A stretch of DNA of 36,827 bases. Origin: Candidatus Zhuqueibacterota bacterium (GTDB lineage Bacteria > Zhuqueibacterota > Zhuqueibacteria > Residuimicrobiales > Krinioviventaceae). A program made the position numbers and the translations under genes. Within the stretch, counting starts at the first letter, position 1, and each line of letters begins with the position of its first letter. A model generated the notes under the pieces. The model was not told where the DNA came from, did no database searches, and saw only the letters and a program-made list of their open reading frames with translations. The stretch lies in NCBI GenBank assembly GCA_003854995.1, contig RQOI01000083.1, positions 1 through 36,827 of the forward strand, in the 5' to 3' direction. Below, piece by piece: positions 12,178 to 23,329 of this stretch.

Positions 12178-14070
12178 TCAAGTTTTCGTGCCATGTTTCA
12201 TATACAAGTCATACCACAGGTGAAACACCATCAATGCCCATAATCTGTGACTATGATTCTCTCTGCTCTTCAGGTGTTCACTGACAAGTCGCTTGACAAA
12301 CTGCGGATCAAAATAGCCCTTTTCCTTCACATTCTTTTCCGATAACGACTCGAGCATCATCGGCTTGAGCTCATTTTTGATCCAGTTTTTGATCGGAATA
12401 CTGAAACCTTCTTTACCGCGCTCAATGATAGAGAGCGGCAGCTCATTCTGCATGCAGGTCTTGAGAATATGTTTTGTCCGTTTGCCTTTCAAGCGCAAAT
12501 GGCTTGGTATCGTCGCGGCAAACTCGACAAACCGAAAATCGAGAAAAGGTACGCGCGCTTCCAGCGAATTGGCCATGCTCATGCGATCAACCTTGACAAG
12601 GATATCATCAACCAGATAGCTTTTGATGTCCACATATTCCTGTTGGTCGAGAGGTTCGCGTGAGGTCACGCGCGCGAAATACTCTTCGATGAAACCAAAA
12701 GAATTGTAGCCGTGCAAAGACCGGGAGAACTCGGGCGAGTACAAAAGATCTTTTTCAGCCTTTTGCATAAATATCATCCAGCGGACATGTTGCAGATTGC
12801 CGGGTAATCTCGCACCTTCAATGAAGCGTTTGGCTCTGTTGATCAGTCCTTTCTTCTTTTCCGTTGGCGGCAGGGCGTCTATTATAGGATCAATTGATAA
12901 TTTTCGCAGAAATCCAGGCAATCTTGCATATTTTTTCGCCAGTCTCTGCGCGATGTAGGTGTCATAGCCGGCGAGCAGTTCATCACCGCCATCGCCCGAG
13001 AGCACGACCGTCACATTCTTGCGCGCCATTTGCGAGACGAGGTATGTCGGGAATACGGAAAAATCTCCAAAGGGTTCGTCGAGCATCCACACTATTTTTT
13101 CCGTCAGGTCGGCTGCGTCGGGCTTTATAATTTCTTCAAAATGCTCTGTCCGGAATCTCTCGGCAACGGCGCGCGCGTAGGGGAGCTCGTTATAGGTCGT
13201 TTCGTCAAAACCGATGGAAAAGCTTTTGACCGGACCAGTGTTGTTGCGGCTCATCATCGCGACAATAGTGCTTGAATCAAGACCACCGCTCAGAAAAGCG
13301 CCGAGAGGTACGTCACTCATCAATCGAATTTTAACTGCGTCCGCAAGAAGCTCATCCAGACGTTCGTTCAGTGCTGCCTCACTGGCCGTGGAGCAGTTGT
13401 ACTGCACATCCCAGTATTGTCGCACCAAAAGTCGGCCATCGCGATAGGACAGCCAATGCCCTGGCGGCAATTTGTGGATGTTGGTGAAAATGGTGTATGG
13501 ACTGGGAATATACTCAAAAGTGAGGAAAGCATCCAGCGCTTTCGGCTCAATCTCTTTCGGAATGGAATCGAGTTGTACAATCGATTTGAGTTCCGACGCA
13601 AATACGAGTTGCTGTGCATCGCAGTAATAATAGAGCGGTTTGATGCCGATGCGATCTCGAGCGAGGAAAAGTCCCTTTCGCCGGCCATCCCAAATGGCAA
13701 AAGCAAACATGCCGTTCAATCTTTCGAGACAGTTTATCCCCCACTCTTCATACGCATGCAGAATCGCTTCGGTGTCTGTTTTCGTAACGAAGACATGGCC
13801 TTTTGCCGTCAGCTCTCTGCGGATGTCGACATGGTTGTAAATCTCGCCATTGAAGACGATGGCCATTGATCGGTCCTCATTGAAAATCGGCTGATGGCCG
13901 GTGGACAGATCGATGATGCTCAGTCGTCGCATTCCGATGCCCACATTGTCGCAGACGAATTGACCTTCGTCATCCGGGCCACGATGTTTGATGACATTGC
14001 ACATTTTTATCACATCAGCGCGCGCAACCGGATGCTCTTTTTCCCGATGGATGATGCCGCAGATGCCGCA
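12178..14070 (-). CDS. asnB: Asparagine synthase (glutamine-hydrolysing)-type amidotransferase
   Basis: MCGICGIIH N-terminal nucleophile Cys; GALSGGLDSSTIVA PP-loop (sequence LGAFLSGGLDSSTIVAMMS); conserved C-terminal region. Start set to the MCGICG ATG. Confidence 0.85.
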   Translation of the reverse strand, partial: CGICGIIHREKEHPVARADVIKMCNVIKHRGPDDEGQFVCDNVGIGMRRLSIIDLSTGHQPIFNEDRSMAIVFNGEIYNHVDIRRELTAKGHVFVTKTDTEAILHAYEEWGINCLERLNGMFAFAIWDGRRKGLFLARDRIGIKPLYYYCDAQQLVFASELKSIVQLDSIPKEIEPKALDAFLTFEYIPSPYTIFTNIHKLPPGHWLSYRDGRLLVRQYWDVQYNCSTASEAALNERLDELLADAVKIRLMSDVPLGAFLSGGLDSSTIVAMMSRNNTGPVKSFSIGFDETTYNELPYARAVAERFRTEHFEEIIKPDAADLTEKIVWMLDEPFGDFSVFPTYLVSQMARKNVTVVLSGDGGDELLAGYDTYIAQRLAKKYARLPGFLRKLSIDPIIDALPPTEKKKGLINRAKRFIEGARLPGNLQHVRWMIFMQKAEKDLLYSPEFSRSLHGYNSFGFIEEYFARVTSREPLDQQEYVDIKSYLVDDILVKVDRMSMANSLEARVPFLDFRFVEFAATIPSHLRLKGKRTKHILKTCMQNELPLSIIERGKEGFSIPIKNWIKNELKPMMLESLSEKNVKEKGYFDPQFVKRLVSEHLKSRENHSHRLWALMVFHLWYDLYMKHGTKT

Positions 14071-14072
14071 CA

Positions 14073-15290
14073 TTAGCCTGTCGTCCTCATCACTCGTTCC
14101 ACAATCCATTTTGTCTTTTGCAGATAATCATCATAGCTGTAATGCTGTTCAGCCAGATGCTGCGCTGCAGCGACAAGACGCCGTTGAGCATCTCTATCGT
14201 CCAGAATAGAGAGCAGGGCCTCCGCAAATGCTTCCGGATTCGGATCGGCTAAAACAGATGTGGAGTCACTGAGTATTTGTGTGTGTGTGATGTGACGCGT
14301 GGCCACAATGGGCTTGCCGCTCCTCAAATAGGAATAGATCTTGAGGGGGGAATTGCTCCCCTGCAATCGCGGCGAGACGAGCACATCGCTGAGTGAGACA
14401 AAACCGGGGATCATGTTGGGCGGCACAAAGCCGGTGAAGGTGAATTTAGATTCAACTCCGAGTTTTTGTGCTTGCGCCCGATACATCGACACCTGCTGTT
14501 CATTGCCGCCGACCATTAAAAATCGGACGTCTCCGCGGCGTTTTTCCACCCGAGCGGCGCTTTCGACGAGCATATCAATCCCCTGATACGCCTCAAACGT
14601 GCCATAGTAGAGCACTATCTTTGCGCCATTGATATTGTACTGCTTTTTCAAGCTTTCCTGCAGGGCAGCGGTCGCCGGGAAGACAATGCTGTTATCCGCG
14701 ACGTTTTCAATGAGCATACAGCGCTGATCGGGAAATTTTTTTTCGACATAGCTCTGCAACTCTGGGCAAATCGTTATCACGCCGGCAGATTTCCTGATCG
14801 TCTGTCGCTCCAGTGCTTCAAACAGCTCGAGCAGCAGCTTGGACGTGGAGAATTTGAAATTACCGAGCTGCTGCGGCAAACTGGAATGCATGTCATACAG
14901 ATGCGGCAGGCCGTATTTCGCGGCCAGAGAAACGCCAAAAAAACCGGCTTCTTCGTGAGTGTGCAGATAGTCATAGCGGAATTTCTTCAGCAATTCCACA
15001 GCTTTGAAATAGAGGGCGATATCCAGAAATATCTTGGGCAGCGATGGTCCGATCTTTACTTTTTTGATGAACGGCACCTTTGCCGCACGATGGATGGAGA
15101 GGTTATCGATCGACACATCTTCACCGACATGATAGGTGACCAAATCGACTTTGTGGCCAAGCAGCGACAATGCCTTGATGCGATGCAATACACTGAAAGG
15201 CGTACCACGAGGCTGGAACCACGGTTGGGGCGCGATCATGAGAATGCGCAGCTTTTCCACTTCATCGCCATCATGGATGTTAACATTCAT
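14073..15290 (-). CDS. Glycosyltransferase family 4 (GT-B)
   Basis: ILMIAPQPWFQPRGTPFSVLHRIKALSLLGHKVDLVTY; C-terminal VLVSPRLQGSNSPLKIYSYLRSGKPIVATRHITHTQILSD. Confidence 0.85.
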   Translation of the reverse strand: MNVNIHDGDEVEKLRILMIAPQPWFQPRGTPFSVLHRIKALSLLGHKVDLVTYHVGEDVSIDNLSIHRAAKVPFIKKVKIGPSLPKIFLDIALYFKAVELLKKFRYDYLHTHEEAGFFGVSLAAKYGLPHLYDMHSSLPQQLGNFKFSTSKLLLELFEALERQTIRKSAGVITICPELQSYVEKKFPDQRCMLIENVADNSIVFPATAALQESLKKQYNINGAKIVLYYGTFEAYQGIDMLVESAARVEKRRGDVRFLMVGGNEQQVSMYRAQAQKLGVESKFTFTGFVPPNMIPGFVSLSDVLVSPRLQGSNSPLKIYSYLRSGKPIVATRHITHTQILSDSTSVLADPNPEAFAEALLSILDDRDAQRRLVAAAQHLAEQHYSYDDYLQKTKWIVERVMRTTG

Positions 15291-15320: not shown

Positions 15321-16778
15321 TTATTGAGCACCGTAGCCGGTGATGACAACCCAAAAGGTTCGAAACATCAGTTTGAGATCCAATACGAGAGACCAATGAT
15401 CGATGTATTCCAGATCCATCCTCATCCACTCTTCAAAACCGATTTTGTTCCGGCCGCTGACCTGCCAGATACAGGTAATTCCGGGCTTGAGAGAGAGCCT
15501 TCGGCGCTGCCAAATCTCATAGTGCTCGACTTCGCTTCGCAAGGGTGGCCGCGGGCCGACAATGCTCATATCACCTTTCAACACATTGAAGAATTGCGGA
15601 ATTTCATCGATGCTGGTTTTACGGATGAGATATCCGATGGGTGTGATACGCGGGTCATGCTTGATCTTGAACACCGGGCCATCCATCTCATTATGATGCG
15701 CAAGCGACTCTTTTAACGCTTCCGCATCTGAGACCATAGACCGGAATTTGTACAGCGAAAATTTACGTCCATTCAGCCCGATACGTTCTTGTCGGAAAAA
15801 GATGGGGCCCTTCGACGTGATGCGGATCAAGAGTGCGACAAGCATGATGAGTGGTGAGAAGAAGACGATGGCACAGGCTGAAATGCAAATGTCCAGCACT
15901 CTTTTGATAAAGAGCTGCCATTCCTTTGCGTAAAAGGTCTGGAATTCCAGCAGCGGAAAGCCGTTAAAATCGGTCTGCCTCGCTTTGGCAATGTGCAGAT
16001 TATAGAGGTCCAAAGAGATTGAGGTCGAGACGCCCACCTTTTCGCACTCCAGTATTGCACCTTCGATTCGATCCAACCAAATCCGCGGCACGACAAAAAT
16101 GACCCGGTCAATGACGAGTCGGTTCACAATGAAACCGATGTCCTGAATGCGACCGAGGACGCGATACCCTTCGATCTCTTTGCCAAAATAGCGCGGATCA
16201 TCATCAATCAAGCCGACGATGTGCAATCCCCAGTTCGAGTGACCCTTGACATTGCGAATGAATTCGCGGGCGCGATTGCCGGTTCCAACGATGAGTAAAT
16301 TTTCCTGGTTATAACCTTTGGCATGCATCCGTTCCAAAATGAACAGGAGCATGGCTTTTTCCAATATGATCAACGTGTAAGCTGTGCCAGAGTAAACGAG
16401 GAAGAATAACCGGCTGGCCATATCAAATTTGAGAAAGAAGACAAAACTGCCGCACACGAAACTGGCCCAAATGGAGGTGACAAAAAGAATCCACGCCAGA
16501 TTTTTAAAAGTGCGCGTCCTGTACTCCTGATAGATTTTATTCAGCTTATACAGCACCCACCAGATGAGCGGAAAACCAATGAACATGATCCAGTATTTTG
16601 AGGCAAAATACATTAGACCGGATACATCGACGCTGGTCGCATAGGCCTTCACATTCCAGAACGTAATGTAGCGAATGAATTCGTCGACATAGTACGCCAA
16701 TGGAAATGCGACATAAAGAATGAGCAGATCGATGAACTGCATCACATTCTGAATGAACTTTTCTTTATCGACCAACAT
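15321..16778 (-). CDS. Initiating undecaprenyl-phosphate sugar phosphotransferase (polyprenyl glycosylphosphotransferase)
   Basis: N-terminal TM helices, central NAD-binding-like domain, C-terminal bacterial sugar transferase: KRVLDICIS...KGPIFFRQERIGLNGRKFSLYKFRSM...SIDEIPQFFNVLKGDMSIVGPRP...KPGITCIWQVSGR. Confidence 0.9.
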   Translation of the reverse strand: MLVDKEKFIQNVMQFIDLLILYVAFPLAYYVDEFIRYITFWNVKAYATSVDVSGLMYFASKYWIMFIGFPLIWWVLYKLNKIYQEYRTRTFKNLAWILFVTSIWASFVCGSFVFFLKFDMASRLFFLVYSGTAYTLIILEKAMLLFILERMHAKGYNQENLLIVGTGNRAREFIRNVKGHSNWGLHIVGLIDDDPRYFGKEIEGYRVLGRIQDIGFIVNRLVIDRVIFVVPRIWLDRIEGAILECEKVGVSTSISLDLYNLHIAKARQTDFNGFPLLEFQTFYAKEWQLFIKRVLDICISACAIVFFSPLIMLVALLIRITSKGPIFFRQERIGLNGRKFSLYKFRSMVSDAEALKESLAHHNEMDGPVFKIKHDPRITPIGYLIRKTSIDEIPQFFNVLKGDMSIVGPRPPLRSEVEHYEIWQRRRLSLKPGITCIWQVSGRNKIGFEEWMRMDLEYIDHWSLVLDLKLMFRTFWVVITGYGAQ

Positions 16779-16785
16779 GTCTCAA

Positions 16786-17772
16786 TCACGTCCTCGAAAG
16801 GTCTTGTTCATGTCGTTGATTATTCTGCAGGAACCATTGCACAAAATACCTTATACCATCTTCGATCTGAATCTGCGGATCATATTCAAGCTCTCTCCTC
16901 GCCTTTTCGACATTCGAAAAGGTGACAGGCACATCACCCGGCTGATCCGGCCTGAATTCGAGGAGCGCTTCAATGCCGAGAGCGTCCTGTATCAGTCTGA
17001 TGAGCGCAATGAGTTCGATCGTCTTTGATTCGCCGAGATTATAAATATTATAGCCATCGCAATGGTGGATCGCTGCTGTGATGCCCTGAATGATGTCGGA
17101 AATATAGGTGTAATCGCGACGACTGGCGCCGGCGCCAAAGACTTGAATCGGTTTTTTGCTGTAGATGAGACGGGTAAATTTATGAATCGCCATGTCCGGG
17201 CGTTGCCGCGGACCGTATACGGTGAAAAAGCGCAGACAATTGACCGAAATATCGTAAAGGTGGTGATAGGTGTAGCAGATGAGCTCACCGGCCTTCTTTG
17301 TCGCGGCGTAGGGTGAAATCGGATGATCGACAAGATCTGTTTCTTCAAACGGCACTTTCTCATTGGCGCCATAGACAGACGAAGAAGAGGCAAAGACAAA
17401 TTTTTTTATGTTATGAATTCTGCACTGCTCGAGCACATTCATCGTGCCGCGCACGTTCACGCTCTCGTAGAGCAAAGGGTGCTCGATTGAGGGACGAACA
17501 CCGGCTCTCGCTGCGAGATGAACGACGAGATCAAAAGGATGCTGATGAAAAAGTTCCTGCAGGCCGGACTCATCCAGGATGTCCAATTCAGCGAGTCTAC
17601 AGTTTGCCGACCGCAACGCCGCACTGATATTTTGTCGTTTGATGGCTGGACTGTAATAATCATTGAAATTATCCAGACAAACGATATTATGCTTTTCTTC
17701 CACCAGCCTTTCGATCAAATGCGAACCGATAAAACCGGCGCCACCTGTGACGAGAATATTCAAAGCGCTCAT
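16786..17772 (-). CDS. NAD-dependent epimerase, UDP-glucuronate 4-epimerase-like
   Basis: ILVTGGAGFIGSHLIERL, SSSSVYGANEKVPFEE, YAATKKAGE; LRFFTVYGPRQRPDMAIHKFTRLI matches UDP-GlcA/Gal epimerase subgroup. Confidence 0.85.
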   Translation of the reverse strand: MSALNILVTGGAGFIGSHLIERLVEEKHNIVCLDNFNDYYSPAIKRQNISAALRSANCRLAELDILDESGLQELFHQHPFDLVVHLAARAGVRPSIEHPLLYESVNVRGTMNVLEQCRIHNIKKFVFASSSSVYGANEKVPFEETDLVDHPISPYAATKKAGELICYTYHHLYDISVNCLRFFTVYGPRQRPDMAIHKFTRLIYSKKPIQVFGAGASRRDYTYISDIIQGITAAIHHCDGYNIYNLGESKTIELIALIRLIQDALGIEALLEFRPDQPGDVPVTFSNVEKARRELEYDPQIQIEDGIRYFVQWFLQNNQRHEQDLSRT

Positions 17773-17779
17773 CTTCCTC

Positions 17780-20101
17780 TTAGTAATGATAATAGCTGTA
17801 CGAACTTTTCATGTTTGCCTCTTCCGTACCATTCATGACGACGCCGACGAGATTAGCCGGCACTGTGTTAAATATGTCCAATCTTTCTTTTGCATTGTTA
17901 CGATTGGTCTTGCCCGCTTTCACGACGATGACGACCGCATCAACCAGGGTGCTGATGACAACCGAATCGGTTGCTGCATCAAGTGGCGGTGCATCAAATA
18001 TGATAAAGTCGTACTTTCTCTTCACCTCGGCGACAAATCGCCGCATCTGCATTGAGCCGAGCAATTCTGATGGATTGGGAATTAAGGAACCGCAACTCAG
18101 CACAGAGAGATTGGGAACATGCGTCGGCTGGACCAGTCCGACGAGGGTCGCCTTATTGCTCAGATAGTTAGTCAAACCAGGATCCTTTGAGGTGCTAAAG
18201 GTATTATGCTGAACGCCGCGACGCAAATCGGCGTCAACCAACAGCGTATTCGTGCGTTGTTGGGCCATGATGATGGCGAGATTGCTCGCGGTGAACGATT
18301 TCCCCTCCTCCGGGCTGATGCTGGTGATGAGTAATGTCCGGATCCGTTCCGAGCCGCGCGCGAACAGCAGCTGTGTTCGTAACGCCCGATACGCTTCGCC
18401 GACCGGTGTCGGCGAATAGTCATGCGTCACCAGCTGGCGATCAATTTGCAGCGCTTTTTGGTCATCGCGAAAATCGGGAATATCTTTGAAAGAAACAACT
18501 GGTATTGTTCCGAGCACCGGCAAGTTCAGATACCGTTCGACATCGCGAAGTGTATACAACGATCGATCCGCGATGTCAAGGCCAATCGAGAGGAAGAGCC
18601 CAAACAGCAAACCAAGACCACTGCCCAGCATGACCTGCCTTTTTTTGCTCGGATTGACCGGAGTGGTCGGCCGCGCGGCGCGGTCCAGGATGCGAATGCC
18701 GGCATCCGAACCGGTGCCAGAAACCTGCAGTCTTTTCATTTCAACATAGAAAGTCGTGAACAGCTCTTCATCGACCTGTTTTTTTCGCTCCAGCTCCATC
18801 AGCCGTCTTTCATCACTCGGCAGGGTGTGCAGCTTTGCCTCAAGTTCCACTTTTTCCTTGCGTTGAGCAGATTCTTGCTCGGCAAGAATATTTCGATAGT
18901 TGGATGCAAATTCAATAATTTTATCCTGCGTCTCCTGGATCCTTTTGGCATAGTTGATGACATCTTTGTGCTCAGCGGAAAACTCGGAATACAATCGATC
19001 ATATTCCTTTTCCAAATTCTCGAGGTTTTGTCGATAGATTATTAATTCCGGCTCTTGCGTCATGGCGCCAAAAGAGGCAAGCTGATGAACGACGACGCGT
19101 CGATATTCGCGCTCGTAGCCATCTTCAGGATTTTCAAGCTTCATGAGTAGATTTGAAAGCATTCGACGCTGATGAGGTAAATCCCTCAACGCGCTTTCGT
19201 TAGCTGCCAATCGATTCATGAGGCTCTTTTTCTCAGCATCCAGGGAAAGCGGATACTGGGAATAGAATCGGTGCAGGCCCTCTTCACTATTCTTCATATT
19301 CTCTTCGGCTGCGGAAAGGTTTCGGCTCAGCATATCCCGATAGGTGTCCGAATCCATCAACTTGAGTCTCTTGATTTCGAGCAGATAAGCCTCGGCAATC
19401 CGATTGAGAAGTTTTGGTATCAGATCAGGATTTTCATCTTCAAGCTCGATCACCAAAAAATTCCCGGCCCGGTTGAAAGTTTTTTCAACAGAATAATAGA
19501 GGAATTTAAATCCCTTGATAAACGGCCTGATGCGGAAATGAAATTCTCCCGGCTTGTAGCTGAAATTTGGATTAAGGCGATATGAAATGCCGTTTATAGA
19601 GCGCGGCGTATCGACAGCCTCCCAGACGTCGGCGCTATCGACCGGCGTCGCCATATCGCTGTCTTTTCGATACAAGTAATAAGTGCCCAGTTTATCAATG
19701 ACGATTTTGTACTGCGCCTCAACGGGATTCGTTGTCGTGTGATATTCAAGGAACACTTCATCAAAATCTTTATATACAGAGTCTAAATTCACAAATGCCA
19801 AACCGAGGACAGCTGCCATGCGCTCGGTGAAGGATTGACTGCGAATTTCGGCCTGTGTATCACCATCAAAAATATTATACTCGTCGGTGCCAACCTTTTT
19901 TGACTGTATGACAACCCTGCATCGATATCTGGGCACCTGATTCTTGGCAATAAAATAAAAAGGGATGGCAAAGACAAGGCTCAAACTGATGATGAGCCAC
20001 TTGCGTCTCCATATGCCTCGAAAAAATTTTGCAAAATCTATTTGACTGGACAGCTCTTTATCAATCGGCTCTTCAAATGTCTCGAAATCTTCCATTGCCA
20101 T
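17780..20101 (-). CDS. Polysaccharide co-polymerase with fused BY-kinase (Wzz + tyrosine autokinase)
   Basis: N-terminal Wzz-type TM domain, coiled coils, second TM, then Walker A SISPEEGKS, A' LLVDADLRR, B FIIFDAPP and C-terminal Tyr cluster SSYSYYHY. Confidence 0.9.
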   Translation of the reverse strand: MAMEDFETFEEPIDKELSSQIDFAKFFRGIWRRKWLIISLSLVFAIPFYFIAKNQVPRYRCRVVIQSKKVGTDEYNIFDGDTQAEIRSQSFTERMAAVLGLAFVNLDSVYKDFDEVFLEYHTTTNPVEAQYKIVIDKLGTYYLYRKDSDMATPVDSADVWEAVDTPRSINGISYRLNPNFSYKPGEFHFRIRPFIKGFKFLYYSVEKTFNRAGNFLVIELEDENPDLIPKLLNRIAEAYLLEIKRLKLMDSDTYRDMLSRNLSAAEENMKNSEEGLHRFYSQYPLSLDAEKKSLMNRLAANESALRDLPHQRRMLSNLLMKLENPEDGYEREYRRVVVHQLASFGAMTQEPELIIYRQNLENLEKEYDRLYSEFSAEHKDVINYAKRIQETQDKIIEFASNYRNILAEQESAQRKEKVELEAKLHTLPSDERRLMELERKKQVDEELFTTFYVEMKRLQVSGTGSDAGIRILDRAARPTTPVNPSKKRQVMLGSGLGLLFGLFLSIGLDIADRSLYTLRDVERYLNLPVLGTIPVVSFKDIPDFRDDQKALQIDRQLVTHDYSPTPVGEAYRALRTQLLFARGSERIRTLLITSISPEEGKSFTASNLAIIMAQQRTNTLLVDADLRRGVQHNTFSTSKDPGLTNYLSNKATLVGLVQPTHVPNLSVLSCGSLIPNPSELLGSMQMRRFVAEVKRKYDFIIFDAPPLDAATDSVVISTLVDAVVIVVKAGKTNRNNAKERLDIFNTVPANLVGVVMNGTEEANMKSSYSYYHY

Positions 20102-20111
20102 AATTCAACCT

Positions 20112-20777
20112 TTAATTTTTATCACTGAATGCGTAGTATAAAAGCACGAGCGATGCGAAAAAGTTGACATATCTCGTAATCGCATCAAAACTGATTCTGC
20201 TAACTCGCGGAACGACGATCTCATCACCAGATACAAGTCTCAGCTCGCGAATGGATGTCCCTTCATACAAGGAATTCCAAAAATCTGCGTAAATGATTTC
20301 GCCATTTCGCACGACGTAAATATCTTCAGCTGCGAGGTTACTCGACAGTCCGCCCGCCTCGGCAACTACATCCCAAAAAGAGGTCGTCGGGCTAAAGCGG
20401 TACATTCCTGGTTTGCCGAACTCTCCCTTCAGGATCAGCCGAATGAGAGGATTGATCATGATGGTCAAATTTTTTCCGTACGTTTTAAACTTTTCTTCAA
20501 ACAGCTTTGTCACTTCCTCGAGCGACATGTCTGCCACATAGACTCGGCCAAATGATCCCAATTGTACATAACCTTCGCCATCAATCACAAATTCGACATC
20601 ATGAAAGTTTGACAGGATTCTATTGCGGTTAGGCTCCATTTCATTGTCGTAGATCAATATTTTCAAGCCATCGGCCTTTTTAAATCTGAAATCTTCTGTT
20701 GCATGCGCAGTAAGGTGCACGGCGAAAAATAATGCGATGATCAAACTCTTGCATAAAGTTTTCTGAACCACGTCCAA
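20112..20777 (-). CDS. Polysaccharide export protein, Wza-like
   Basis: Signal peptide; DGEGYVQLGSFGRVYVADMSLEEVTKLFEEKFKTY poly-export motif; SLBB-like GKPGMYRFSPTTSFWDVVAEAGGLS. Confidence 0.85.
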   Translation of the reverse strand: MDVVQKTLCKSLIIALFFAVHLTAHATEDFRFKKADGLKILIYDNEMEPNRNRILSNFHDVEFVIDGEGYVQLGSFGRVYVADMSLEEVTKLFEEKFKTYGKNLTIMINPLIRLILKGEFGKPGMYRFSPTTSFWDVVAEAGGLSSNLAAEDIYVVRNGEIIYADFWNSLYEGTSIRELRLVSGDEIVVPRVSRISFDAITRYVNFFASLVLLYYAFSDKN

Positions 20778-20789
20778 TCTCTCCTCAAT

Positions 20790-21530
20790 TTACCGTGAGC
20801 GGAAATAACGAAATCTCTTGGTCTTTGTATCCAGAGACAAGCTTTTCAATATGTTGTATAGTTTGAGCAAACCGACCCTGGTATAGCCAAAGCGTGGTGA
20901 AAAGAGCATCCTTTTCAATCCCCAGGCGCCAAGAATCGGATTCTCCAGAACGATCTTTTTTATTTTTTCATTGATCGGCAATAGAGTTTCATCGATTTCC
21001 CTGCTGTGGGATCGACTCGGCTTCGAATCAGAGGGCGTGATCGCAGCAGCGGGTGTCCGATGCTGTCGATCGATCTGATCGCTGACCAGCGCACTCTTTG
21101 TCGACGCATTGACGCTCATGCCGGCGACAGGGCGGATGTAGGAAGATGGAGCTGCCGCGCTGTTGAGTCCACGACAAAAATCAAAATCCTCAATAGCTTC
21201 CTCGATCGAGTCATAGCTGGAAAGGATGCGATGAAATTCGAGCATTTCGAATACTTCAAAAACCTCCGATGACATCTGCGTGATTTTCAAATCACCGCCT
21301 TTTTCCTGCAATCTGCGTATTTCGCCGACAAACACGCCCCATCCTGCGCTGCTGACATATTGAACCGCCGCCATATCGATGATAAATTGACAGATGCCCT
21401 GTTCAATCGTCTGCCCCAGCAACTTTTGCAGCTCAGACGATGTGTTCGTATCGACATAGCCATGCGTTTTAAGCAATGCGATATCCTTCAACGCTCCGAC
21501 CCGATACTCTTCAATTTGAATACCTTCCAT
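20790..21530 (-). CDS. STAS-domain (anti-sigma-factor antagonist-like) protein with C-terminal HTH-like domain
   Basis: STAS core QFIIDMAAVQYVSSAGWGVFVGEIRRLQEKGGDLKI; C-terminal IKKIVLENPILGAWGLKRMLFSPRFGYTRVGLLKLYNILKSLSLDTKTKRFRYF. ORF track starts at 21656; ATG at 21530 (MEGIQIEEY) is preceded by AAGGAAATT. Confidence 0.75.
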   Translation of the reverse strand: MEGIQIEEYRVGALKDIALLKTHGYVDTNTSSELQKLLGQTIEQGICQFIIDMAAVQYVSSAGWGVFVGEIRRLQEKGGDLKITQMSSEVFEVFEMLEFHRILSSYDSIEEAIEDFDFCRGLNSAAAPSSYIRPVAGMSVNASTKSALVSDQIDRQHRTPAAAITPSDSKPSRSHSREIDETLLPINEKIKKIVLENPILGAWGLKRMLFSPRFGYTRVGLLKLYNILKSLSLDTKTKRFRYFRSR

Positions 21531-21833
21531 AATTTCCTTTTCACCTGTTCGTTCGCTTTTTTCCAGCGCGACCGCACCACACGCATTGAGGGTCACTGCC
21601 TGCAGAGAGCGGTTTATTGAGCAAAGTTGGTGCCAATGGAAGAGATCATGCGGCAAATGAAAGGGGGATGAAACGGCGCAGGTTTGTATGCCAGTAATTC
21701 TATATTTTTATTAGTCTAATAGCGGAAAGTTTTGCAAGAATATGCACGCCTTTGATTCCGATTCAAGCCGGCGGCATAAAATAAAACAGGTCTGTCAAGG
21801 CACGAGACAAAGATGTCCCACCCTAATACATCA

Positions 21834-21862
21834 GTAAAAAAACCGCATCACTTGCGTTTTTT
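21834..21862 (-). terminator. Possible intrinsic terminator overlapping the glgA stop codon
   Basis: Minus strand AAAAACGCA-AGTGA-TGCG(G)TTTTTTT; imperfect stem with stop TGA in the loop, followed by T-tract. Confidence 0.4.
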
Positions 21863-23329
21863 GCTCTCCAGCTTTTGATAGACCTTGATATAGTTCTCAG
21901 CTGACTGTGTCCATGAAAAATCAACCTTCATCCCGCGTCGCTGGATTTTGATCCAATTCTTTTGATCCTGAAAAGCCGTGACGGCGTGATGAATGGCGGT
22001 CAGCATGGCGTTGCTGCTATAGTCGGTGAAAACAAAGCCAGTGCCTTTTTCAGGTTCCAGGACAAAATCAATGATCGTATCCGCCAGCCCGCCGGTTTTT
22101 CGAACAATGGGGACAGTGCCATATCTGAGGCTATACATCTGATTGAGTCCACAGGGTTCGAACCGGGAAGGCATCAAAAACATATCACTACCCGCTTCGA
22201 TCAGGTGAGCGAGTTCTTCATCAAAGGTGAGAAAAGCGGCGATTTGATTCGGGTTGGTTTTGGCGGCTTTTTTGAAAAACTTGTGGTATCTCTCATCGCC
22301 GGTGCCCAAAACGACGAGCTGGACTTTCAATGATATCAGCTTGTCAATGACATCAGCAATGAGGTCAAAGCCTTTTTGATCAACCATTCGCGAGACGATG
22401 CCGATGATCGGCGTTTTTTCATCGAACGGCAGCTTGGCTCGGGCAGTCAGCGCTTTTTTATTTTCAAGCTTGCCACTCAGATTGTCAGCATCATAGGGAG
22501 AGATGAACGGATCTTTCTCGGGATTCCAGACAGAATAATCAACGCCGTTCAAAATGCCGTGAATATCATTTTTACGTCGCCGCAGAATATCCAAAAGGCC
22601 GGCGCTCTGCTCCATATCTGTCTGTATTTCTTCGGCATACGTCGGGCTGACCGTCGTGATGAGGTCGGACGTCACCAAACCACTCTTTAGGAAATTGATT
22701 CGGTCCCAGATCTCCAGATCGCTGGTATTCACCTCGGGGCCGATGCCGATCCTCGGCAGCACCGATTTATCAAAGCTGCCTTGATAAGACAAATTATGGA
22801 CCGAGAGCACCGTTGCAGTGCCGGCAAAGAACGGATCCTGGGCGTATTCGTGCTTCAATAACCAGGGTATCATAGCTGTCTGCCAATCGTTGCAGTGGAT
22901 CACCTGCGGCTGCCAATGAAGCAGTTTTGTCGTTGCCAGGGTGGCCCGGCACAACAGCATGAATCGCTCGGCATTGTCTGGAAAATCTGTGCCTGTTTTT
23001 GCATCCACATAGAGTTCCGGACGGCTGAAATAGGCGGGATAATCCAGAAAATAGACCTGCACTTTCGAATCGGGAATGAACGCTGACTTGGCGCACGTCA
23101 CATGTTCCTTGCTCCCCATGCGCACCGGAATTTTTTTGAGTCGAATGACCTCGCGCAGGATATATTTCCGTTCACTGATGATCCCGTATTTGGGCATTAT
23201 AATCCGGACATCATGCCCCATATCGTACAGAGCTTTGGGCAGCGAACTCGTCACATCCGCCAGACCGCCGGTTTTTGCAAACGGGGATACCTCTGAAGCA
23301 AGAAATAGGATTCTGAATCGATTTTTCAT
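21848..23329 (-). CDS. glgA: Glycogen synthase (GT5)
   Basis: LFLASEVSPFAKTGGLADVTSSLPKAL N-terminus and PSRFEPCGLNQMYSLRYGTVPIVRKTGGLADTI. Confidence 0.92.
   Translation of the reverse strand: MKNRFRILFLASEVSPFAKTGGLADVTSSLPKALYDMGHDVRIIMPKYGIISERKYILREVIRLKKIPVRMGSKEHVTCAKSAFIPDSKVQVYFLDYPAYFSRPELYVDAKTGTDFPDNAERFMLLCRATLATTKLLHWQPQVIHCNDWQTAMIPWLLKHEYAQDPFFAGTATVLSVHNLSYQGSFDKSVLPRIGIGPEVNTSDLEIWDRINFLKSGLVTSDLITTVSPTYAEEIQTDMEQSAGLLDILRRRKNDIHGILNGVDYSVWNPEKDPFISPYDADNLSGKLENKKALTARAKLPFDEKTPIIGIVSRMVDQKGFDLIADVIDKLISLKVQLVVLGTGDERYHKFFKKAAKTNPNQIAAFLTFDEELAHLIEAGSDMFLMPSRFEPCGLNQMYSLRYGTVPIVRKTGGLADTIIDFVLEPEKGTGFVFTDYSSNAMLTAIHHAVTAFQDQKNWIKIQRRGMKVDFSWTQSAENYIKVYQKLESKKRK

Follow-up and report, generated by a model that had tools for sequence, protein, structure and literature searches.

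The window analysed here, a stretch of 36,827 nucleotides, encodes on its reverse strand a protein of 246 amino acids, STAS-A, in which a STAS domain, a linker, and a helix-turn-helix (HTH)-like domain follow one another. The gene occupies positions 20793 to 21530, with an ATG at 21530 and a stop codon at 20790 to 20792, and an AAGGA ribosome-binding site, read from the sequence, lies on the same strand 4 nt before the ATG (21535 to 21539). A TTG at 21656 offers only a longer option and was rejected, as the homologues start at ATG 21530, where their alignment has a conserved M-E/Q/D-G beginning.

Twelve nucleotides after STAS-A comes a wza-like polysaccharide export gene with Poly_export and SLBB domains (20112 to 20777), followed by a wzc-like gene for a chain-length/tyrosine autokinase (17780 to 20101), a nucleotide-sugar epimerase gene (16786 to 17772), a gene for an exopolysaccharide (EPS) polyprenyl glycosylphosphotransferase scoring over the TIGR03025 cut-off (15321 to 16778), and, in the same run, glycosyltransferase and XrtA-type amidotransferase-like genes (12178 to 15290). 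All are on the reverse strand, which confirms the view of the initial annotation that STAS-A is the first gene of an EPS operon. The amidotransferase (12178 to 14109, reverse strand) is near the XrtA/PEP-CTERM type, its 680 bits against TIGR03108 lying below that model's cut-off of 817. Upstream of STAS-A is a conserved neighbor, a glgA-type glycogen synthase gene (21848 to 23329, reverse strand). The STAS-HTH architecture recurs beside wza and wzc in other genomes, where STAS-A precedes the pair without exception in about 24 distinct loci and glgA is upstream in all but one of them; the order of Lgt, YbgF-like, and other genes around STAS-A is conserved as well. Judged by this synteny, the STAS-A family extends across the KSB1 phylum and keeps a fixed place, with glgA on one side and wza-wzc on the other. 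No anti-sigma or sigma factor gene lies beside the STAS-A locus, and there is no CapK-type kinase (HTH-STAS-GHKL) among its neighbors in the window.

The N-terminal STAS fold that had been read from the sequence was borne out. Residues 15 to 112 (21195 to 21488, reverse strand) match PF01740 at an E value of 8.1e-18, the match to TIGR00377 exceeds the model's cut-off, and the fold is similar to those of SpoIIAA and RsbV (Foldseek E values of about 1e-8; 1.3e-8 for SpoIIAA). A UXS1_N match inside the domain was discarded as spurious, being below cut-off and overlapping the STAS match. The candidate phosphoserine context noted earlier, the SSAGW motif containing S60 and S61, is present in 61 of 61 homologues with no variation. 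Ser61 (codon at 21348 to 21350, reverse strand), invariant in this set, is the predicted phospho-acceptor, and on the strength of the motif we take it to be the equivalent of SpoIIAA Ser58. An invariant STAS serine supports the likely phospho-switch that had been proposed for this protein.

Residues 120 to 183 (20982 to 21173, reverse strand) form a low-confidence, presumably disordered linker, with AF2 pLDDT values mostly below 65 and values below 50 for residues 138 to 165. The remainder, residues 184 to 246 (20793 to 20981, reverse strand), is the HTH-like C-terminal domain (CTD), defined by family profile matches and the AF2 model: 63 helical amino acids related to the transposase HTHs HTH_21 and HTH_32. 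Since a search with the window's CTD as a single sequence matched no Pfam model, a family profile was needed. Among homologous CTDs, 18 of 62 matched HTH_21 (PF13276; best E value, 5.5e-6) and 3 of 62 matched HTH_32. The members checked scored 22 to 24 bits against HTH_21, below the curated cut-off of 28.1, and we therefore do not claim membership in that family; a MarR model was absent from the 25 families shown for the homologous CTDs. When HMMs of the CTD and of the phylum's true HTH_21 transposases were compared directly, the E value was 0.02 at best. The HTH_21 and HTH_32 domains of IS3-, IS481-, and Tc-type transposases have the sequence signature and helix layout seen in the CTD, but the CTD stands without a catalytic domain and is a C-terminal or internal module of signaling proteins.

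Structure prediction gave a compact domain of four helices (pLDDT, 94 to 98) with no beta wing in the AF2 model. The nearest PDB folds are mostly those of DNA-binding HTH proteins (LmrR, PerR, AhrC, and Pax), and the Foldseek matches, all with E values above 1 and a TM of about 0.6, are compatible with an HTH but weak evidence for one. A PDB sequence search with the CTD profile returned no match, and one with the full STAS-A profile matched STAS-only antagonists alone. The resemblance to the N-terminal HTH of IS3-type transposases could be taken to mean that the CTD is a decayed, functionless transposase fragment. This is scarcely credible, as it is already contradicted by conservation of the domain over its full length, with invariant residues, across the phylum; nor is a DDE catalytic domain present, no Pfam match to one being found and STAS-A ending 63 amino acids past the linker. 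In STAS-A the basic C-terminal tail of the CTD is invariant (R56, R58, R61, S62, and R63 in domain numbering), whereas surface positions of the recognition helix vary from protein to protein.

Searches of related genomes assign the window to candidate division KSB1. The KSB1 phylum contains two paralogous groups of such proteins, group A, which includes the window gene, and group B (STAS-B), and the CTD is present in every full-length in-phylum member of either group compared. Directly upstream of STAS-B, in 20 of 20 in-phylum loci, is a gene for a kinase/phosphatase of 1050 to 1480 amino acids, which comprises, in order, an RsbW/SpoIIAB-like HATPase_c_2 kinase, two transmembrane helices, a HAMP domain, a SpoIIE phosphatase, a pair of HTHs, a linker that is acidic (net charge, -32 to -116), and TPRs. 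The enzyme occurs in 76 of 82 phylum genomes, with its catalytic motifs (HATPase N-box and SpoIIE) intact in nearly all; in the genome to which the window belongs, the enzyme is divided between contigs C491 and C375, and STAS-B is on C375. The second HTH of the enzyme and the CTD are homologues (hhalign, 98.1%; E value, 1.1e-13), and the HTH pair matches HTH_23, HTH_28, HTH_29, HTH_32, and HTH_Tnp_1 with E values down to 1.3e-11. This homology and the family matches of the CTD itself make the assignment of a transposase-type HTH to the C terminus, as made in the initial annotation, a sound one.

A CTD profile search found matches in 60 of 60 phylum genomes, 54 of which had at least three. The matches read among those listed belonged to STAS-A, STAS-B, the kinase/phosphatase, and a rarer long-linker STAS, and in the nine genomes with extra matches those read were further kinase/phosphatases or STAS proteins whose linker is long and acidic. 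Being common to STAS-A, STAS-B, and the kinase/phosphatase, the CTD is, within the scope of the matches read, a domain of a single partner-switching system. The third kind of STAS protein, found in several genomes of the class, has 385 to 550 amino acids, with the CTD after the long acidic linker, and genome G026 encodes additional HATPase-SpoIIE-HTH proteins, one of 1990 amino acids. Outside the phylum, G090 has a STAS gene and a kinase/phosphatase homologue side by side, and in G133, from another phylum, a STAS gene whose CTD is shortened after helix 3 is divergent from a glgA-like gene, with the kinase/phosphatase homologue encoded elsewhere.

Partner-switching STAS proteins usually work solely via other proteins. 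The CTD could be a protein-docking module that delivers the STAS substrates to their membrane kinase/phosphatase by HTH-HTH contacts or by contacts between the basic CTD and the acidic tail of the kinase; STAS-A would then act by protein contact as SypA does. The origin of the CTD would then be a transposase HTH captured once and spread within one signaling system. As a reading of the CTD, docking is as serious as DNA binding, since the same domain sits on a membrane kinase/phosphatase and is neutral there: the mean net charge of the CTD is +11.5 in STAS-A and +7.6 in STAS-B and is +0.4 in the kinase/phosphatase copy. The confinement of all CTD matches read to components of one system, the strongly negative linker of the enzyme, its membrane anchoring, and the fact that the invariant surface of STAS-A is the basic C-terminal helix and not the recognition helix are all in keeping with docking. 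A purely kinase-docking role, however, does not account for the invariance of the A tail (RFYRSR) beside a variable B tail although the kinase is shared, or for the constant place of STAS-A beside the wza promoter, and CapS shows that a STAS-winged HTH layout is able to bind DNA. We regard docking as the whole function of the CTD as a substantial possibility, though one falling short of even probability.

The noncoding DNA of the locus carries conserved signals of its own. In the 317-bp gap between glgA and STAS-A, 105 nt before the ATG, is a sigma54-type -24/-12 promoter, TGGCACCAACTTTGCT (21620 to 21635, reverse strand), which fits TGG-N10-GC at -24/-12 with correct spacing. A score of at least 13 of 15 for this element was reached by 63% of 51 homologous upstream regions and by 3.5% of shuffles, and 41 of the 51 regions align on it. 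The sigma54 consensus occurs 10 times in genome G000 and 11 times in G001, whereas the reversed control pattern occurs once and twice, respectively. The genome has rpoN, and the domain of sigma54 activators has about 26 matches in it. Sigma54-like elements also precede dnaK, grpE, and leuS, with 16-mers that two species of the genus share letter for letter, which suggests sigma54 control of chaperones, and on contig C138 of G001 a second SLBB polysaccharide-export gene lies behind a sigma54-like element, about 1.6 kb from the gene of a sigma54 activator.

Upstream of the promoter, and like it conserved across the class, are two enhancer-like dyads, TGTATTAGGGTGGGACAT (dyad 1; 21813 to 21830, reverse strand) and, 21 bp from it, TGTCTCGTGCCTTGACAG (dyad 2; 21792 to 21809, reverse strand). 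An unbiased search for k-mers and inverted repeats returned mostly AT-rich noise except for ACAATGTTTC and TGTT-N9-AACA, and from these two signals the tandem dyads were recognized as 18-bp TGT-N11-ACA elements, each an imperfect palindrome. With a weight matrix whose training set came from other families, 95% of the members of the window's order scored beyond the 95th percentile of shuffled sequences, and with the roles exchanged the share was 77%; this is the fair test, as figures fitted on their own training data are inflated. The dyads are helically phased, with a spacing of 21 bp in the window's order (15 of 20 members) and of 18 to 20 bp elsewhere (18 bp in 12 of 18). In the genomes searched, the STAS-A promoter is the sole occurrence of perfect tandem dyads.

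These features might indicate that STAS-A is a local repressor or co-activator acting on the dyads of its own sigma54 promoter, in line with the possible autoregulation raised in the initial annotation: the dyads are conserved and phased, in perfect tandem form they are confined to this promoter, and as imperfect palindromes they are fit for a dimer. Tandem activator sites upstream of a -24/-12 element are, however, the usual layout of sigma54 promoters, and a position 80 to 230 bp upstream is typical of enhancer-binding proteins; with about 26 sigma54 activators, the genome has more obvious owners for the dyads than STAS-A. By a strict pattern, the sigma54 element is 5' of STAS-A in 35 of 51 loci and 3' of it, directly before wza and mostly behind a terminator, in 7 of 51; no locus of the 51 has both positions at once, and nine have neither, several of these with near matches. 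In sister classes the element lies between STAS-A and wza, there is no recognizable promoter 5' of STAS-A, and the dyads are absent, yet the CTD, tail included, is unchanged. That the CTD is the same in both promoter arrangements argues that the dyads are activator sites and not CTD sites. In some sister-class loci a terminator with a GCATCCG stem is followed by TGGTAT-N5-TTGC directly before wza. Neither sigma54 nor dyad elements were found 5' of the kinase/phosphatase, and the STAS-B upstream regions have no convincing sigma54 consensus. Autoregulation as a conserved property is weakened by these observations, and we consider autoregulation by STAS-A at the dyads improbable; the conserved trait, as far as promoter predictions indicate, is sigma54-type control of export together with the adjacency of STAS-A.

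STAS-A, STAS-B, and the kinase/phosphatase look like one signaling system controlling the cell's coat. The shared CTD, the intact catalytic motifs, the invariant serine, the fixed synteny, and the conserved sigma54 and dyad DNA support a model, the best explanation of the whole and one that we hold with even confidence, in which three proteins form a partner-switching system and STAS-A, encoded in the operon itself, is its output. The membrane kinase/phosphatase would be the input, responding to an outside signal by phosphorylating or dephosphorylating the conserved serine of STAS-A and STAS-B, and the phosphorylation state of STAS-A would decide its action, via the basic HTH, at the adjacent sigma54-type export promoter. 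We infer the kinase-substrate pairing for STAS-A from the shared domain, on which it rests because STAS-A is not adjacent to the enzyme; for STAS-B, adjacency and the shared domain together make the predicted pairing stronger.

Direct contact of the CTD with DNA is the least certain part of this model, and within it we give such contact slightly better than even odds. The mean charge in STAS-A, the HTH ancestry, and the precedent of CapS speak for it. Against it are the near neutrality of the kinase/phosphatase copy, which argues against a common DNA-binding role, and the invariance of the basic tail beside a variable recognition-helix surface; the absence of dyads from sister classes with the same CTD counts against a link between CTD and dyads. 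The CTD may also contact DNA and protein, each in turn. A more speculative idea, which we put forward tentatively as rather less probable than otherwise, is that the KSB1 lineage domesticated a transposase HTH a single time and that the domain then reached every member of one system, the membrane kinase/phosphatase and two or three STAS proteins, to serve as a docking code peculiar to them. One fold might in this way let a STAS protein be held either by the acidic tail of the kinase or by promoter DNA, in a phospho-controlled hand-over from membrane to gene.

The initial annotation did not include STAS-B, its neighboring kinase/phosphatase, the sigma54-type promoter, or the pair of dyads. We know of no STAS target in SypA-type polysaccharide systems. 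Here, a whole phylum keeps a STAS-HTH protein at an export operon, with a candidate kinase/phosphatase sharing its domain and a defined sigma54-type promoter that has enhancer-like sites, which brings STAS control of polysaccharide synthesis within reach of direct tests on three purified proteins and a single DNA of 320 bp. A literature search that covered few subscription journals found no description of the STAS-A/kinase system and no paper on STAS proteins in KSB1. STAS-HTH regulators have been known since CapS (2026), and polysaccharide STAS proteins under a kinase/phosphatase since SypE/SypA; what is new is that all partners share a transposase-type HTH, that the enzyme has this membrane architecture, that STAS-A is fixed at the export operon throughout the phylum, and that a sigma54 element and dyads make up the control region.

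Like the SpoIIAA-SpoIIAB-SpoIIE and RsbV-RsbW-RsbU systems, the set described here has a STAS substrate, a HATPase_c_2 kinase, and a SpoIIE-type phosphatase, but here a single membrane protein combines kinase and phosphatase, each partner has an HTH in addition, and no sigma-factor target was found. In Vibrio fischeri, the bifunctional serine kinase/phosphatase SypE controls the STAS protein SypA, which in turn governs the forming of a polysaccharide biofilm (PMC4517449, PMC8256260), and PMC3610818 presents SypE as a response regulator whose receiver domain is central. Here, the enzyme encoded beside STAS-B has both a kinase and a phosphatase domain with their motifs and would act on STAS-A in a comparable way; SypA is a STAS domain only, whereas STAS-A and STAS-B carry the CTD, and these accounts describe an HTH for neither SypE nor SypA.

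A further likeness is to CapK/CapS. CapS consists of a STAS domain and a C-terminal winged HTH, and its dimer represses its own operon until the STAS serine is phosphorylated by a GHKL kinase, a direct read-out at DNA; that kinase, CapK (HTH-STAS-GHKL), is activated by single-stranded DNA, has no phosphatase domain described, and with CapS guards immune operons (EMBO J 2026, PMC13373217). Both systems combine a STAS domain with a C-terminal HTH, a conserved serine, an HTH on the kinase, and a regulator beside an operon, a likeness of domain layout, as CapS is not among the structures matched by STAS-A. The winged HTH of CapS is MarR-like, whereas homologues of the STAS-A CTD match HTH_21 and HTH_32, and in place of immune operons there are here a membrane kinase/phosphatase, two STAS paralogues, an EPS operon, and a sigma54-type promoter. 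Taken with CapK/CapS, STAS-HTH regulators are thus more widespread than immune loci.
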